Source: Hymenobacter canadensis
Lineage (GTDB): Bacteria; Bacteroidota; Bacteroidia; Cytophagales; Hymenobacteraceae
Reading direction: 5' to 3'
Length of the DNA: 64,000 bases
NCBI RefSeq assembly: GCF_027359925.1
Contig: NZ_CP114767.1
Span: 3,472,001 to 3,536,000 of the forward strand
Shown here: piece after piece, positions 3,665-9,472 of the stretch
Numbering within the stretch: position 1 is the first letter of the stretch
Layout of the letters: every line of letters begins with the position of its first letter
Position numbers and translations under genes: made by a program
The notes under the pieces: generated by a model
What the model saw: only the letters and a program-made list of their open reading frames with translations
Database searches by the model: none
Told to the model about the DNA's origin: nothing

Positions 3665-4738
3665 CTATTGGCCTTCCATCACGCGGTTTTGGCGGGCAAT
3701 GGACTCCAGGTGCACGGCGGCCAGGTACTGTTCCACAAACTCGTGGGTGAGGCCCAGCGTGGCGCCCTGGCGCTGGGCGCGCTCCAGCACCTCGTTCCAG
3801 CGGCTGGTCTGCAGAATGGTGATGTCGTTTTCCTTTTTGTAGAGGCCGATTTTCTCGGCCACGGCCATGCGGCGGCCCAACAGCTGCATAATCTCGGCAT
3901 CGAGCTGGTTGATTTGCTCGCGCAGGCTGGATAGCGCCGTCAGGAACTCGCGCTGGTCGGTGGTTTCGTGGCGCCACACCAGCGCCTCAATCAGGTCGCG
4001 CAGCACCTCGGGCGTAATTTGCTGCTTGGCGTCGCTCCAGGCGTTGTCGGGGTCGATGTGGCTTTCAATCATGTTGCCCTCGAAGCCCAGGTTGAGAGCC
4101 TGCTGGGCCACCGTAAACAGCGTGTCGCGGCGGCCGCAGATGTGGCTGGGGTCGCAGAGCAGCGGCATGTGGGGGTGGCGGCGCTTCATTTCGATGGGCA
4201 GGTGCCACATGGGCGCATTGCGGAAGTCGGTGTTGCCGTAGCTGCTGAAGCCCCGGTGAATCAGGCCCACCTGCTCCAGACCGGCCTTTTGCAGACGCTC
4301 CACGGCGCCCACCCACAACTCCAGCTCCGGGTGAATGGGGTTCTTGACGAGCACTGGCACCTGCACGCCGCGCAGCACATTGGCAATTTCCTGCACCGAA
4401 AACGGGTTGCCGGTGGTGCGCGCGCCCACCCACAGAATGTCCACCCCGAAGGCCAGGCAGTCCTCCACGTGCTTGGCGGTGGCCACTTCCACGGCCACGG
4501 GCAGGCCGGTCAGCTCACTGGCTTTCTTCAGCCAGGGCAAACCCTTGGTGCCCACGCCCTCGAAGCCGCCGGGCTTGGTGCGGGGCTTCCAGATGCCGGC
4601 GCGCAGGGCCTGCACCTTGCCGGTAGCGGCCAGGCGCTGGCAGGTTTCGAGCACTTGTTCCTCGGTTTCGGCCGAGCAGGGCCCGGAAATGAGGTACGGC
4701 TTATCGTCAGGCTGGCGGTTGAACAGGGTTGATTTCAT
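3665..4738 (-). CDS. Bifunctional DAHP synthase / chorismate mutase
   Basis: 357 residues. The N-terminal two thirds match the class of DAHP synthases found fused to chorismate mutase in Bacteroidota: SGPCSAE near the start, GIWKPRTKPGGFEG (phosphate/PEP binding) and LLCDPSHICGRRD (metal and phosphate site). From about residue 262 an AroQ-type chorismate mutase follows (LREQINQLDAEIMQLLGRRM, then AVAEKIGLYKK). The enzyme would condense PEP with erythrose 4-phosphate and also convert chorismate to prephenate. It is the last gene of the aromatic operon, after tyrA, so entry and branch-point steps share control with the Phe/Tyr branch. Confidence 0.95.
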   Translation of the reverse strand: MKSTLFNRQPDDKPYLISGPCSAETEEQVLETCQRLAATGKVQALRAGIWKPRTKPGGFEGVGTKGLPWLKKASELTGLPVAVEVATAKHVEDCLAFGVDILWVGARTTGNPFSVQEIANVLRGVQVPVLVKNPIHPELELWVGAVERLQKAGLEQVGLIHRGFSSYGNTDFRNAPMWHLPIEMKRRHPHMPLLCDPSHICGRRDTLFTVAQQALNLGFEGNMIESHIDPDNAWSDAKQQITPEVLRDLIEALVWRHETTDQREFLTALSSLREQINQLDAEIMQLLGRRMAVAEKIGLYKKENDITILQTSRWNEVLERAQRQGATLGLTHEFVEQYLAAVHLESIARQNRVMEGQ

Positions 4739-4959: not shown

Positions 4960-5805
4960 TCACGGCAGAATCTTGCGGATGCGGTTAGCTTGCTGAATGC
5001 TGTCGGTCAGTCCGTTGTAGTCTTCGCGGGCCAGCAGCTCGCGCAGGTGCTGGAGTTGGTGCAGGTGCTCATCCAGCACGTCGAGCACGTTGAGGCGGTT
5101 TTGGCGGAAGATGGGTACCCACGTCGCCGGCGCGCTCTTGGCCAGCCGCACCGTCGACTCAAAGCCGCCGCTGGCCAGGTCGAAGATGCGCTGCTCTTCC
5201 TTCTCCTTTTCCAGCACCGTGAGGGCCAGCGCAAACGAGGTGATGTGCGAAATGTGCGACACGTAAGCCGTGTGCAAATCGTGCTCGGCGCCGCCCAGGT
5301 AGAGCAGTCGCATGGGCAGCGCCTGAAACAGCTGCTCCACCACCCGCACGGCGTCCGGGTCGCTGTGCGCCGTGTCGCAGAGCACCACCGTCTTGCCCTC
5401 AAACAGCCCTGAAATGGCTGCTTCTGGGCCCGAGTGCTCGGTGCCCGCCATCGGGTGCGCCGCCACGAAGCGGCCCCGGCGCGGATGCCCGGCCACAGCC
5501 GCCAGCAGCGCCTGCTTGGTCGAACCCACGTCGATGACCACTTGGTGCGCTTCCGTCACGTCGAGCACTTGGGGCAGCACCGTCACGAGGGCATCCATGG
5601 GCACGGCTACCACTACCAGGTCGGCGCGGCGTACCGCGGCGGCCAGGTCGGTTTCGATTTCGGCCACCAGCCCCAGCTCCAACGCCCGGCGGGCGTGGGC
5701 GGGACTGTTTTCCACACCGATGATGTGCTGGGCCAGCCTATGCTGGCGCAAGCTAAGCGAGAGCGAGCCGCCGATAAGTCCTAAGCCGATGATGCTGATA
5801 GTCAT
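4960..5805 (-). CDS. tyrA: Prephenate dehydrogenase
   Basis: 281 residues from the ATG at 5805. The N-terminus is a Rossmann dinucleotide fold (MTISIIGLGLIGGSLSLSL), followed by DVGSTKQ and HPMAGTEHSGP, the conserved substrate motifs of TyrA-type dehydrogenases; HISHITSF provides further conserved histidines. It oxidises prephenate to 4-hydroxyphenylpyruvate with NAD(P). The frame is open 19 codons further upstream, but those codons (MLRQAQYDVL...) come from an intergenic repeat and the Rossmann strand starts directly at the chosen Met. It lies between the aminotransferase and the DAHP synthase/chorismate mutase in one operon. No ACT domain is visible. Confidence 0.93.
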   Translation of the reverse strand: MTISIIGLGLIGGSLSLSLRQHRLAQHIIGVENSPAHARRALELGLVAEIETDLAAAVRRADLVVVAVPMDALVTVLPQVLDVTEAHQVVIDVGSTKQALLAAVAGHPRRGRFVAAHPMAGTEHSGPEAAISGLFEGKTVVLCDTAHSDPDAVRVVEQLFQALPMRLLYLGGAEHDLHTAYVSHISHITSFALALTVLEKEKEEQRIFDLASGGFESTVRLAKSAPATWVPIFRQNRLNVLDVLDEHLHQLQHLRELLAREDYNGLTDSIQQANRIRKILP

Positions 5806-5836
5806 GGTGTTGATTGGCTGGCTGGTTGTTATAAGA

Positions 5837-5930
5837 ACGTCATACTGAGCTTGCCGAAGCATCTCTACCGCTTCGTTGCAATGCTAACCCAACGAAGCGG
5901 TAGAGATGCTTCGACAGGCTCAGCATGACA
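5837..5930. repeat. Inverted repeat between aminotransferase and tyrA
   Basis: Arms 5837-5879 and 5889-5930 are near-perfect complements (CGTCATACTGAGC...GAAGCATCTCTACCGC and its inverse). It is one of several copies in the window that share the GTCATGCTGAGC...GAAGCATCTC core. In-frame translation of the arm gives a spurious N-terminal extension of tyrA. Confidence 0.85.
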
Positions 5931-5931
5931 G

Positions 5932-7164
5932 TTAGCCTCTGGCGAGATGCTCCGGCTGCGCCTCTGCATGACGGCCGGGTAGCGTGCTTTGCCACTCCCG
6001 CACCCGCGTCAGCGCCTCGCGCAGCTCACTTTCTGGCTGGCAGAGGCTGGCCCGGATGTAGCCGCCGCCGTTGCTGCCGAAGATGCCGCCCGGCGTCAGG
6101 AACACCCGGGCGCCGGCCAGCACGGCGTCGCTCAGGGCGTAGCCGTCGGCCACGCCGGCTGGCACGGCCGCCCAGATGAACAGGCCCACCTGCTCGGGCA
6201 CCGGCGCGCAGCCCACGGCCTGCAGCAGCTGCACCACCAGTTCCCGGCGGGCCCGGTAGGTGGCATTGAGGTCCGCAAACCACTCCTCACCCAGCGCCAG
6301 GGCTGCCACGGCCGCCTGCTGCACCGGCAGAAACATGCCCGAGTCCATGTTGCTCTTGAAGCGGAGCACGTTGGCCAGCACGTCGGCGCGGCCAGCGAGT
6401 AGGCCCACGCGCCAGCCGGCCATGTTGTGGCTCTTGCTGAGCGAGTTCAGCTCCACGGCCACCTCCAGGGCGCCCGGCACCGCCAGCAAACTCAGGGGCG
6501 GCGTTTCGTTGAGAATGAAGCCGTACGGATTGTCGTGCACCAGCAGAATGCGGTGCTGCCGCGCAAACGCCACGAGGCGCGTCAGGAAGGGCAGGTCGGC
6601 GGCGGTGCCGGTGGGCATGTGCGGGTAGTTGACCAGCATCAGCTTCACTCGGGAGAGGTCGGTGGCGGCCAGCGCGTCGAGGTCGGGCAGCCAGCCGGCG
6701 GCTTCGGTGAGGTTGTACTCCCGGATTTCGGCGCCGCAGATTTCGGCCACGGCGCGGTAGGTGGGGTAGCCGGGGTTCGGGATGAGCACCGCGTCGCCGG
6801 CTTCCAGAAACGTCATGGCCAGGTGCATCAGCCCTTCTTTCGAGCCCAGCAGCGGCAACACCTGCGTGGCAGCATCCAACGCCACGCCGTACTGGCGCTG
6901 GTAGAAATCGGCCATGGCCTGGCGCAACGCGGGCGTGCCCTGGTAGCCCTGGTAGCCGTGGGCCGTGGGCTGGGCGGCCGAGGTGGCCAGCGCGGCCAGC
7001 ACGCTGGGGTGCGGCGGCAGGTCGGGGCTGCCGATGCCGAGGTTGATGATGTTGGCGCCGGCCGCGTTGAGGGCCGCCAGCTCGCGCAGCTTGCGGGAGA
7101 AGTAGTATTCGCCGGTGTGCGCCAGGCGGCTGGCTACGGGGATTTGCAGGGTATTTTCTGTCAT
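5932..7164 (-). CDS. PLP-dependent class I/II aminotransferase of the aromatic operon
   Basis: 410 residues, a fold-type I aminotransferase. The PLP-binding lysine is K244 in SLSKSHNMAGWRVG. The substrate-region motif reads NYPHMPTG (about 179-186): the usual Asn of NPxNPTG is replaced by Met. Its place between pheA and tyrA makes it the likely transaminase for phenylpyruvate and 4-hydroxyphenylpyruvate, but related proteins also act on LL-diaminopimelate or methionine precursors, so specificity is inferred from context. The C-terminal codons run up to the repeat at 5837-5930, and the last residues (about RHAEAQPEHLARG) may be a repeat-derived tail. Confidence 0.9.
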   Translation of the reverse strand: MTENTLQIPVASRLAHTGEYYFSRKLRELAALNAAGANIINLGIGSPDLPPHPSVLAALATSAAQPTAHGYQGYQGTPALRQAMADFYQRQYGVALDAATQVLPLLGSKEGLMHLAMTFLEAGDAVLIPNPGYPTYRAVAEICGAEIREYNLTEAAGWLPDLDALAATDLSRVKLMLVNYPHMPTGTAADLPFLTRLVAFARQHRILLVHDNPYGFILNETPPLSLLAVPGALEVAVELNSLSKSHNMAGWRVGLLAGRADVLANVLRFKSNMDSGMFLPVQQAAVAALALGEEWFADLNATYRARRELVVQLLQAVGCAPVPEQVGLFIWAAVPAGVADGYALSDAVLAGARVFLTPGGIFGSNGGGYIRASLCQPESELREALTRVREWQSTLPGRHAEAQPEHLARG

Positions 7165-7326
7165 TGCGAGGACGAAGGACGAAACAATCCTTCCTCTAAA
7201 AGTGGTGAGCGTCCATTACGCGCAAAGCTTTACGGCTTTGGCATATCGTTGTCATGCCGGAGGACTTTGAGCTGAGGAACGTGTCTGCTACGAGAGGAAG
7301 GATTGCTTCGCTGCACTCGCCATGAC
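7163..7326. repeat. Inverted repeat overlapping the pheA 3' end
   Basis: Arms near 7163-7198 and 7293-7326 are complementary (ATTGCGAGG...AATCCTTCCTCT type). The distal arm lies inside pheA and encodes its last residues; the other starts at the aminotransferase start codon. Repeats of this type, with GTCATTGCGAGG ends, also occur near 12.83 and 13.04 kb. Confidence 0.75.
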
Positions 7327-8157
7327 ACTTTCCTCTTCCCAGCTGCCGCGGCGGTAGGCACCCAGCACCCGCAGCTCTTCCGTCACCAGGGACAGGTCGG
7401 CGAGCAGGGCCACCAGCTGGGCCATCTGGCTGAACTCGACATCGGCGTGGAAGCCGTAGTGCCAGGGCTGGCCGGGCCGCGGGCACGACTGCAGCTTGCT
7501 CAGGTTGAGGCCATGCGCGGCCACACGCACCAGCACGTTGGCCAGGCTGCCGGGCTCGTGCGCGACGCAAAAGTACAGAGAAGCCTTATCGGCGTGGGGG
7601 TCGGTGAGGGCGGTGTCGGCGCGCTCCAGCACCAGAAACCGGGTATAGTTGTGCGGGTCGTCGTGGATGGCGGGGGCCAGAATGTGCAGCCCGAACAGCT
7701 CGGCGGCCTGGGCCCCGGCCACCACAGCCGCGCCCGGCGTGCCGGTTTCGGCCAGCCACTGGGCGCTGCGGCCGGTGTCGTCGGTTTCTACCAGCTTCCA
7801 GTCGGGGTGGCTGTCCAGGAAAGTGCCGCACTGGCGCAAGGCCATGGGGTGCGAGTGCACGGTGCGCACGTCGGCCAGGGTGGTGCCGGGCCGCGCCAGC
7901 AGGTGCTGATGGATGGGCAGGTACACTTCGCCGGTGACCTGCACGGCGTGGCGCTCCAGCAGCAGGTAGTTAGACAGTATGCTGCCGGCCAGTGAGTTCT
8001 CCATGGCCATGAGCCCGGCCTCGGCGGTACCCTGCACCACGTGCGCAACCACTTCGGCAAAGGTGGCGCAGGCCCGCAGCGCCGGCTCCGGCCCAAAATA
8101 CCGGCGGGCGGCTACCTCGTGGAAACTTCCCTGAAAACCCTGAATGGAAACGTGCAT
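7288..8157 (-). CDS. pheA: Prephenate dehydratase
   Basis: 289 residues. The catalytic domain carries GFQGSFHEVAA at the N-terminus, MAMENSLAGSI, and the DDPHNYTRFLVL motif with the conserved TRF. A C-terminal ACT domain follows from about residue 193 (SLYFCVAHEPGSLANVL), where the usual ESRP motif reads LQSCPRPG. It converts prephenate to phenylpyruvate; the ACT domain normally gives allosteric inhibition by Phe. No chorismate mutase domain is attached; that activity sits in the last gene of the operon. The final residues (VMASAAKQSFLS) are encoded by a repeat arm. Transcription should first pass two leader peptide/terminator units. Confidence 0.95.
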   Translation of the reverse strand: MHVSIQGFQGSFHEVAARRYFGPEPALRACATFAEVVAHVVQGTAEAGLMAMENSLAGSILSNYLLLERHAVQVTGEVYLPIHQHLLARPGTTLADVRTVHSHPMALRQCGTFLDSHPDWKLVETDDTGRSAQWLAETGTPGAAVVAGAQAAELFGLHILAPAIHDDPHNYTRFLVLERADTALTDPHADKASLYFCVAHEPGSLANVLVRVAAHGLNLSKLQSCPRPGQPWHYGFHADVEFSQMAQLVALLADLSLVTEELRVLGAYRRGSWEEESVMASAAKQSFLS

Positions 8158-8195
8158 GAGAGAGTAGCTGAGTAACTGAGCAACTGAGTAAGGGC
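8158..8195. repeat. Short heptad-like repeat (ACTCAG/CTGAGT)
   Basis: Directly before pheA the sequence repeats GAGTAGCTGAGTAACTGAG units. The same motif, more extended and in both orientations, is found at 15.04-15.16 kb, so it belongs to a dispersed repeat family and not to pheA itself. Confidence 0.6.
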
Positions 8196-8203
8196 AATAA
8201 AAA

Positions 8204-8226
8204 AGGGCCTCCGTGTGCGGGGCCCT
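8204..8226 (-). terminator. Attenuator terminator 2, before pheA
   Basis: On the minus strand the RNA reads AGGGCCCCG, a CACA loop, CGG-A-GGCCCT, then a run of U (8199-8204 on the complement): a strong intrinsic terminator placed between leader peptide 2 and pheA. The 3' arm (8206-8216) can instead pair with 8261-8270 at the end of leader 2 (ACACGGGGCC), a 10-bp alternative with one bulged base. This is the mutually exclusive pairing expected of an attenuator. Confidence 0.85.
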
Positions 8227-8248
8227 GCGGTTGGTGGTGAACTGGTTT

Positions 8249-8326
8249 TCAGCTCAGGCAACACGGGGCCGGTTTCTTCCAATAGAAGAAATAGGCGTAG
8301 GTAAAAAAGTAGCGCAGGATGGTCAT
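8249..8326 (-). CDS. Aromatic leader peptide 2 (attenuation peptide)
   Basis: 25 codons, ATG at 8326 to TGA at 8249. Residues 5-16 are RYFFTYAYFFYW: four Phe, four Tyr and one Trp in twelve residues, a density not expected by chance. It sits between two intrinsic terminators upstream of pheA. In the classical model, a ribosome stalled at these codons for lack of charged tRNA-Phe or tRNA-Tyr leaves 8261-8270 free to pair with the terminator's 3' arm, and transcription continues into pheA. A ribosome reaching the stop codon covers that segment and termination follows. No strong Shine-Dalgarno sequence is visible, which is common in this phylum. Confidence 0.85.
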   Translation of the reverse strand: MTILRYFFTYAYFFYWKKPAPCCLS

Positions 8327-8342
8327 GGGCAGATGCAGGCGT

Positions 8343-8374
8343 AAAAAAAGCGCCTCCCGGGGTCGGGAGGCGCT
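8343..8374 (-). terminator. Attenuator terminator 1
   Basis: Minus-strand RNA AGCGCCUCCC, a six-base loop, GGGAGGCGCU and seven U: a perfect 10-bp stem with U tract, 41 bases after the stop of leader peptide 1 and 17 bases before the start of leader peptide 2. An alternative partner for its 3' arm is the CGCCACC segment at the end of leader 1 (about 8420-8426), but that match is weaker than in unit 2. Confidence 0.85.
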
Positions 8375-8414
8375 GAAGATTTTCAAGTGGAAAAGCTACA
8401 CGGCGGCTACCCGG

Positions 8415-8474
8415 CTACGCGGTGGCGTAGTAGAAGCAGTAGCTAAAATAGAAACGGGCCGTGGGCTGCAGCAT
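8415..8474 (-). CDS. Aromatic leader peptide 1 (attenuation peptide)
   Basis: 19 codons, ATG at 8474 to TAG at 8415, reading MLQPTARFYFSYCFYYATA. Seven of nine consecutive residues (FYFSYCFYY) are Phe or Tyr. It is the first of two leader peptides in series. Its last codons form a small stem (CTACGC-CACC-GCGTAG) and it is followed by terminator 1. The frame continues open upstream to a stop at 8529-8531 but offers no other ATG. Function as a sensor of charged Phe/Tyr tRNA is inferred from composition and position, by analogy with pheA, pheST and trp leaders. Confidence 0.8.
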   Translation of the reverse strand: MLQPTARFYFSYCFYYATA

Positions 8475-8523
8475 GAGAATGAGGTGCTTGACGTCGGCAA
8501 GGTGGCACCCGCCGCCCGGACTT

Positions 8524-8531
8524 CCAAATTA
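8524..8531 (-). promoter_or_regulatory. Possible -7 box of the aromatic operon
   Basis: The minus strand has TAATTTGG here, one base short of the Bacteroidota TAnnTTTG consensus, 50 bases before leader peptide 1. No good -33 TTTG was found. Weak evidence, offered only as the best candidate for the operon's promoter. Confidence 0.3.
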
Positions 8532-8698
8532 TTTCCCGGAAAAGAACGCCCCTGCCATGCGCCCGGCAAGGCCCAAGCACTAGCCAAGTACGCGGATTCT
8601 GATTTTTGGCACGGTTTTGCAAAAGCACCCAGCATCGGCCCACTTTTCAACCCGCGCAGTGCGGCGGCTGGCTCTTCACTCCAAAACTTCTCGTTATC

Positions 8699-9472
8699 AT
8701 GAAAACTTCCTCTTTCCTTGGCCGTCTGGCCGCCGCTACGCTTCTCTTTTCCGCAGTAGGCACCGCCGCCCAGGCTCAGATTCAAACCCACCGGGTACCG
8801 GCGTATACCGGTAAGGCCCAGGCCCGTTCAGTATCGGCGGTGCGCAAGCCGGCAGCCAGCACGGGCGGCGCTCAGATCGGCATTCGGGCCGGCGTGAACG
8901 TGTCGGACTGGTCGGGGGATGCCGTGCAGAGCGTGATGGACCTGGCCGGCTACACCAACGGCGGCGTGACCAAGGAAATGAAAACCGGCTTCCACGCCGG
9001 CCTCTACGCCACCCTGCCCATCGCGCCCGGCTTCTCCATTGAGCCCGGCGTGCTGTACTCCGAGAAAGGCGCCCGGCTGGTGGGCACGCTGCCCTTCGAA
9101 CAGCTGGACTTCCTGAACGCCCGCGTGACGGCCACCTCGCGCATGGCGTACCTGGATGTGCCGGTGCTGGCCAAAATCAACGTGACGCCCGGCTTCTACA
9201 TCTTCGCCGGCCCGCAGGCATCGTTCCTGCTTAGCAATGAGGTGCGCGTGGAAGCCGGCGCGCTGGGCTTCGATGCCTTCCAGCAGGACTTCGACATCAA
9301 AGACCAGTTCCGCCCCGTCGATTTCAGCGTGACCGGCGGCCTGGGCTACCAGCACAGCAGCGGCATCGGCGTAAGCGCCGGCTACGACTACGGCCTGTCG
9401 TCGCTCGACAAAAACAACCGCTTCGACGCTCAGAACCGCGTCATCAAAGCCTCGGTGAACTACTCGTTCTAG
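8699..9472 (+). CDS. Outer-membrane beta-barrel protein (PorT-like family)
   Basis: 257 residues from the ATG at 8699. A signal peptide (residues 1-26, ending TAAQAQ) is followed by a linker and a barrel domain opening with IGIRAGVNVSDWSG and ending in NYSF with terminal Phe. The pattern GFHAGLYATLPI, then FSIEPGVLYSEKGA, is typical of the 'outer membrane beta-barrel protein' family common in Bacteroidota. The role is probably structural or transport at the outer membrane; no ligand can be inferred. Upstream in-frame codons are not credible because the signal peptide starts at this Met. It is divergent from the aromatic operon leader. Confidence 0.85.
   Translation: MKTSSFLGRLAAATLLFSAVGTAAQAQIQTHRVPAYTGKAQARSVSAVRKPAASTGGAQIGIRAGVNVSDWSGDAVQSVMDLAGYTNGGVTKEMKTGFHAGLYATLPIAPGFSIEPGVLYSEKGARLVGTLPFEQLDFLNARVTATSRMAYLDVPVLAKINVTPGFYIFAGPQASFLLSNEVRVEAGALGFDAFQQDFDIKDQFRPVDFSVTGGLGYQHSSGIGVSAGYDYGLSSLDKNNRFDAQNRVIKASVNYSF

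Follow-up and report, generated by a model that had tools for sequence, protein, structure and literature searches.

Two short open reading frames rich in phenylalanine and tyrosine codons, each followed by its own terminator, lie before the pheA operon of a Hymenobacter species. In the window (the whole 64-kb stretch of Hymenobacter canadensis DNA that was analysed) the operon is on the minus strand and comprises pheA, encoding prephenate dehydratase (7288..8157; PF00800), a gene for a class I/II aminotransferase (5932..7164; PF00155), tyrA, encoding prephenate dehydrogenase (4960..5862; PF02153 and PF20463), and a gene for a DAHP synthase fused to chorismate mutase (3665..4738; PF00793 and PF01817). 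The Pfam domains agree with a preliminary description of the locus for all four genes, and the true start of tyrA is probably downstream of 5862. The leaders themselves sit in a divergent intergenic region, between pheA on the minus strand and an outer-membrane beta-barrel gene on the plus strand (about 8699-9472). Leader peptide 1 (8415..8474, minus strand; ATG at 8474, stop TAG at 8415) has 19 aa and the sequence MLQPTARFYFSYCFYYATA, and leader peptide 2 (8249..8326, minus strand; ATG at 8326, stop TGA at 8249) has 25 aa and the sequence MTILRYFFTYAYFFYWKKPAPCCLS; both frames are present exactly where they had first been placed.

A hairpin with a T run follows each leader on the minus strand (8374-8349 and 8226-8204), in agreement with the earlier proposal that each leader has an intrinsic terminator with a U tract. 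Putative terminator 1 (8349..8374, followed by a T run at 8348-8343) is a perfect 11-bp hairpin of -23.5 kcal/mol (z -5.5), a value matched by none of 200 shuffles, and is indicated by its fold and by relatives. Putative terminator 2 (8204..8226, with a T run to 8199) is indicated by sequence, fold and relatives; its stem has a one-base bulge, the fold of 8225-8203 has an energy of -15.2 kcal/mol (z -3.2), and one of 200 shuffles was as good. A mechanical terminator scan of the 1.3 kb from 7900 to 9200 listed terminator 1 and two further hairpins, with 1.6 expected by chance, and did not list terminator 2. When the pattern of terminator 1 was searched for across the order, 13 of 291 genomes were positive, 12 of them Hymenobacter and one outside the genus (G216).

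Further pairings are predicted within each unit. Folding places a pause-type hairpin in unit 1 (8415..8430, minus strand; CTACGC-CACC-GCGTAG) that links the last Tyr codon and the TAG stop, and another in unit 2 (8274..8290, minus strand; TTCTTCT-ATT-GGAAGAA) that joins Phe codons with the codons following them. According to duplex and folding models, the candidate antiterminator strand 1 (8401..8414, minus strand) has the 5' arm of terminator 1 as its partner, and the candidate antiterminator strand 2 (8261..8270, minus strand), which lies inside leader 2, has terminator 2. The proposal that 8261-8270 pairs with the 3' arm of terminator 2 is borne out by the minimum-energy fold of 8290-8203. 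Across the 64-kb window, Rfam models of every family, including those for amino-acid leaders, T-boxes and the Bacteroid-trp motif, gave no match at gathering score.

The consensus of the Bacteroidota promoter is given as TAnnTTTG in the accessible text of PMC9723704. A putative sigma-A-like promoter of this type is located upstream of leader 1 (8498..8528, minus strand), with TTTG at 8528-8525 and CACCTTG, a weak form of TAnnTTG, at 8504-8498. More generally, a pattern of the type TTTG-N15-23-(T/C)AnnTTG precedes leader 1 in 62 of 107 genomes, where shuffles average 0.5, which argues strongly for a promoter-like element at this position. The pattern occurs in none of 82 stretches from leader 1 to leader 2 and in none of 82 from leader 2 to pheA (shuffles predict only 0.4 and 0.1); its absence downstream is weak evidence because it was also missed upstream of leader 1 in 45 of the 107.

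The distribution of the two units was followed through the 107 of 120 Hymenobacter genomes that have a PheA match, and the upstream region of every one was read (those of G107 and G114 rest on fragmentary PheA matches). A counterpart of leader 1 with its terminator is found in all 107 and a counterpart of leader 2 with its terminator in 82. Every called unit has a hairpin and a T run (107 of 107 and 82 of 82), three unit-1 and four unit-2 hairpins having been re-set by pattern and two leaders placed by hand. The stop codon of unit 1 is TAG in 106 of the 107, and leader 2 of G044 has no stop of its own before the terminator. The double arrangement extends past this species, and both leaders, their terminators and the alternative pairings are present in relatives, which supports the earlier interpretation.

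The remaining 25 Hymenobacter genomes all keep unit 1 and fall into two groups, one of 18 members and one of 7. The 18-member group, represented by three rows in a tree built from 50 PheA proteins, stands beside 27 double-unit rows with strong support and is nested in more double-unit rows, while the 7-member group (five rows) lies among double-unit rows with modest support (82/81); the outgroup rows, G188 and G176, are on a very long branch and their placement is unreliable. The position of both groups among double-unit rows suggests two losses of unit 2. In the 7-member group (L098, L100, L104, L106, L108, L116 and L149), leader 1 has lost the usual stop; its frame continues across the antiterminator strand as far as a downstream TAG, and the peptide ends in ...SRAAVL. 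Outside Hymenobacter, 20 of the 61 PheA-matched genomes of the Hymenobacteraceae were inspected, and seven have two units (three of three in genus g6 and four of eight in g5) and 13 have one (the other four in g5, eight of eight in g2 and the single genome of g4).

The pairings predicted for the window recur in these relatives. In unit 1 a strong stem starts from the last aromatic codons and mostly reaches the stop (CTACGC/GCGTAG and variants) in 102 of 107 genomes, and in unit 2 a pairing between the last Phe codons and those after them is seen in 82 of 82, the latter at a lower score limit and both as counts without a shuffle control. Aligned pause-hairpin columns are paired at 0.90 in unit 1 (0.88 in shuffles) and at 0.93 in unit 2 (0.89 in shuffles). 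For the antiterminator of unit 1, base-pairing joins the 5' arm of the terminator to the stretch 3' of the last aromatic codon, and the pairing arms differ by clade (AACGAGC/GCTCGTT, AACGAGT/ACTCGTT, GTCGAG/CTCGAC and GTCGGG/CCCGAC); the duplex has -13.4 kcal/mol in this genome and -17.5 kcal/mol in the close relatives G074 and G084. The best partner of antiterminator strand 2 is the 3' arm of terminator 2 here and the 5' arm in many relatives.

Compared with the average over swapped partners, a genome's own antiterminator duplex is more stable for 80 of 90 distinct pairs in unit 1 and 65 of 78 in unit 2, and none of 5000 permutations, run with a single representative of each arm type (17 types in unit 1, 25 in unit 2) and with kinship ignored, reached the own-duplex mean for either unit. 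Against base shuffles, 53 of the 90 and 24 of the 78 duplexes lie under a z of -2. The preliminary description proposed a search for covarying stems, and the antiterminator of unit 1 does show clear compensatory changes (0.67 of cells paired in the alignment columns, 0.59 in shuffles, and 83 cells compensatory). The antiterminator of unit 2 is weaker in this respect, its column covariation being no higher than in shuffles (0.72 against 0.71), perhaps as a consequence of a register shift between clades.

The effect of ribosome position was modelled by folding the nascent RNA with the front edge of the ribosome 12 nt beyond the A site. In this folding model the mean probability of the unit-1 antiterminator is 0.79 with the ribosome stalled on aromatic codons and 0.18 with the ribosome at the stop, and it is higher in the stalled state in 107 of 107 genomes; for unit 2 the corresponding means are 0.70 and 0.22, with the stalled state higher in 82 of 82. 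In two of the 82 unit-2 cases, the arm is already masked by a ribosome standing at the stop. On average the antiterminator probability drops one to three codons past the last aromatic codon. With that codon in the A site, a gap greater than 0.3 is seen in 101 of 107 unit-1 cases against 53 of 428 shuffled sequences, and in 51 of 82 unit-2 cases against 80 of 328. The modelling suggests an antiterminator that excludes the terminator, is freed by a stalled ribosome and is blocked by a ribosome at the stop, clearly for unit 1 and more weakly for unit 2. When unit 1 of this genome is folded at full length, the terminator is preferred at every ribosome position (P 0.96-0.97); because the completed terminator wins throughout, the switch would need to be kinetic and not purely thermodynamic.

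No PheA match was found in 36 of 204 Hymenobacteraceae genomes, and none of the 21 tested among them contains PF00800. Five of the 36 keep the aminotransferase gene and tyrA adjacent (G020, G042, G056, G066 and G152; loci L354-L357 and L367), the first four having been located via DAHP synthase; a search for further pheA-less genomes with the operon yielded none in 16. The aminotransferase has an identity to that of the window of 0.73-0.85 in G020, G042, G056 and G066 and of 0.54 in G152. Both leaders and both hairpins stand before the aminotransferase gene in all five. Compared with a relative chosen by leader-region similarity (for G152, picked by hand within its genus), Phe makes up a smaller part of the aromatic core in nine of the ten leaders, namely five of five in unit 2 and four of five in unit 1, and the Tyr codons are kept. 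The exception is leader 1 of G020, with a Phe share of 0.38 against 0.29 in its relative. Leader 1 of G056, MLQSRALLSYYYLYATA, contains no Phe; the mean Phe share of the leader-1 core in the 107 pheA-bearing genomes is 0.52 (range 0.20-0.75). Judged by leader-region similarity and with no tree, the five genomes appear to represent about three losses (G042, G056 and G066; G020; G152), so that the shift in Phe share counts as some three events and not ten. Because the leaders are kept and their Phe share is lower where pheA is missing, both units look like real sensors. The simplest reading is that both leaders would sense what the operon makes, and the sensor codons seem to follow the product of the pathway.

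From what can be read in the sequences (the leaders, the terminators, the alternative pairings, their spacing and conservation, and the lower Phe share without pheA), it is very probable that one transcript from upstream of leader 1 carries two complete ribosome-dependent attenuators one after the other, each of which reads Phe and Tyr. With charged tRNA-Phe and tRNA-Tyr in good supply, the ribosome translating each leader would reach its stop and cover the antiterminator strand, the terminator would then form and RNA polymerase would stop. Under a shortage of either amino acid, the ribosome would stall on the aromatic codons, the antiterminator strand would pair with a terminator arm and the polymerase would continue. 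A transcript would reach pheA only after passing both of these checks.

Alternatively, only one of the units works while the second is no more than a relic or weak copy, in which case the locus would in effect be a single ordinary attenuator. The 25 of 107 Hymenobacter genomes that keep unit 1 alone indicate that one unit can suffice, and the weaker covariation of the unit-2 antiterminator points the same way; against this stand the 82 genomes in which unit 2 has its leader, hairpin, terminator and switch point, and the reduced Phe share of both units in genomes without pheA, which make this alternative improbable. A second possibility is that some other form of termination control, by Rho or an RNA-binding protein, acts on the terminators and that translation merely clears the RNA. 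A Rho-dependent terminator has been raised as a possibility for mgtCBR, to judge from the accessible text of PMC3641672. Both hairpins here have the form of intrinsic terminators with T runs and the codon content of the leaders tracks what the operon can make, and control of this other kind is accordingly very improbable.

The codon content of the leaders bears on what each of them would sense. Phe, Tyr or Trp codons account for 791 of the 963 codons in the core of unit 1 and 583 of the 738 in that of unit 2. Phe and Tyr are nearly equal in both (391 F and 400 Y in the unit-1 core, 273 F and 307 Y in the unit-2 core), exchange between the two is frequent, most positions accept either, and synonymous codons vary. 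The four double-leader genomes of genus g5 are Phe-rich in both leaders. A division of labour, with one leader sensing Phe and the other Tyr, would suit an operon that makes both amino acids; such a division is barely plausible given the near equality of the two amino acids in each unit, the positions that take either and the g5 genomes, and it was rejected on these codon counts.

Frames of this kind seldom arise in shuffled sequence. When the 600 nt upstream of pheA were subjected to dinucleotide shuffling, with 20 shuffles for each of the 107 genomes (n=2140), at least one ORF with 7 or more F/Y/W in 12 codons appeared in 12 shuffles and two such ORFs in none. That the hairpins are ordinary terminators of the upstream gene and the frames are chance or small functional proteins is scarcely credible: chance short ORFs and hairpins do occur (1.6 terminator-like sites expected per 1.3 kb), but the shuffles and the conservation speak against a chance origin, a conserved peptide product would not be expected to show such frequent Phe/Tyr swaps, and the upstream beta-barrel gene is divergent and needs no minus-strand terminators; this explanation was rejected on gene orientation and shuffles. 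Across both strands of the window, three ORFs of 10-60 aa contain at least 7 F/Y/W per 12 codons, two of them being the leaders. The third (24361, minus strand) is Tyr-rich, MKFCFMYIYCYYYY..., has no terminator found for it and is probably due to chance.

With two attenuators in series reading the same signal, the arrangement may be understood as a two-step check, and the balance of the evidence leans towards this interpretation. Read-through would be the product of two probabilities, which would reduce leakage and sharpen the response. Such a series would be old in Hymenobacter and would have been cut to one unit at least twice; it would occur as well in another two genera of the same family, perhaps also in a different family, and selection would have kept the codons of both units in step with what the operon produces. 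Ribosome-dependent attenuation requires coupling between ribosome and RNA polymerase, and a conserved double attenuator makes this coupling testable in Bacteroidota. Translation initiation in this phylum differs from the Shine-Dalgarno type, according to the accessible part of PMC9723704. The clades with a single and with a double unit offer a ready comparison for what a second identical sensor adds, and the pheA-less genomes that keep their leaders offer one for how sensor codons follow a pathway's product.

The classical ribosome-mediated attenuators are those of the phe, trp and his operons of Proteobacteria. Like them (for background, the accessible parts of PMC3641672 and PMC9413887), the Hymenobacter units combine a short leader rich in regulatory codons, a pause hairpin, an antiterminator and an intrinsic terminator before biosynthetic genes. 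They differ in having two complete units for the same amino acids in series, a promoter pattern of Bacteroidota type and no Rfam match. The mgtCBR leader of Salmonella is described in the accessible text of PMC3641672 as containing tandem attenuators for ATP and proline, with stem-loops said to be unlike intrinsic terminators; it resembles the present locus in that two short ORFs in one leader RNA are each tied to alternative structures. In contrast, both Hymenobacter leaders would respond to the same amino acids and are followed by two terminators of intrinsic type, and the locus is not of the mgtCBR kind. T-boxes bind uncharged tRNA directly, whereas the proposed sensor here is the translating ribosome, and no T-box was detected in the window. 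Double T-boxes of Firmicutes nevertheless place two aminoacylation sensors for the same signal in series before one operon (PMC9413887, in its accessible part).

Closer relatives of the locus may be sought within Bacteroidota. The Bacteroid-trp motif RF01692, which the accessible part of PMC2864571 lists among probable cis-regulatory elements, is likewise a candidate cis-regulatory RNA of Bacteroidetes, linked to trp genes by its name; the difference is that the window yields no hit to it at gathering score. A transcriptome study of Flavobacterium psychrophilum gives strong indications of attenuation by leader peptides ahead of amino-acid operons, and the pheA 5' element that it describes is conserved in other Flavobacteriaceae and is without an Rfam match (PMC9723704, in its accessible part). 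This element, too, is a structured 5' region preceding pheA in a member of Bacteroidota, the difference being that the accessible part of its description mentions no leader pair. For two same-signal leader peptides in series, no report was found in the literature searched, most subscription journals and attenuator surveys being outside its scope, and the accessible parts of PMC4833913, PMC7366714 and PMC1262725 contain nothing on such leaders. The preliminary description regarded a double leader as undescribed in Bacteroidota, and this stands as far as reports of the pair in that literature are concerned, with the qualification that a single pheA 5' element was already in print (PMC9723704). 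What appears to be new is thus the occurrence of two same-signal, ribosome-dependent attenuators in series, as judged from sequence comparison.

Single leaders before pheA have a wider distribution. Among 20 regions chosen from other families, an F/Y-rich ORF with a density of at least 8 lies upstream of pheA in 17, and 14 of these have a terminator found by the scanner; nine genomes of family f26, in the same class, have one ORF of density at least 8 each. The 60 best dehydratase matches of the order and phylum, minus one Hymenobacter locus, gave 59 loci, of which a single one (G456) shows a clear leader with a terminator; a few others have weaker F/Y-rich ORFs, five of these ORFs in family f18. 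The contrast between 17 of 20 chosen regions and one of 59 others suggests that single leaders are frequent in certain families, whereas in others they are lacking or went unseen. The earlier statement that the known single leader peptides of phe and trp operons are mostly from Proteobacteria needs the correction that single Phe/Tyr leaders are not rare ahead of pheA in Bacteroidota. In G485 (L244), of another family of the class, two F/Y-rich ORFs with densities of 8 and 6 in 12 lie upstream of pheA, each with a hairpin, and may possibly represent an independent series.

Other amino-acid operons of Hymenobacter were viewed in the same way, with the split G060 copies omitted from the trpE, hisG and ilvD counts. 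A second leader with its own terminator was seen in none of the 26 regions before trpE and the 25 before hisG; the series thus seems special to the aromatic operon, as far as these operons were looked at. Upstream of trpE (L270-L295), a Trp-rich ORF with two or three clustered Trp codons, mostly of the QAWWWP type, is followed by a terminator in 26 of 26 Hymenobacter. Before hisG (L296-L320), a His-rich ORF is present in 24 of 25 Hymenobacter, mostly with no terminator found by the scanner at the distance used, and the hisG region of G026 has a second, weaker His-rich ORF. The genome of the window (G000) and nine others of 26 have no match to dihydroxy-acid dehydratase (PF00920), and branched-chain auxotrophy is possible in such genomes. 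Before ilvD, a short ORF rich in I, L and V with a terminator-like hairpin is present in three of 15 regions (L328, L333 and L336).
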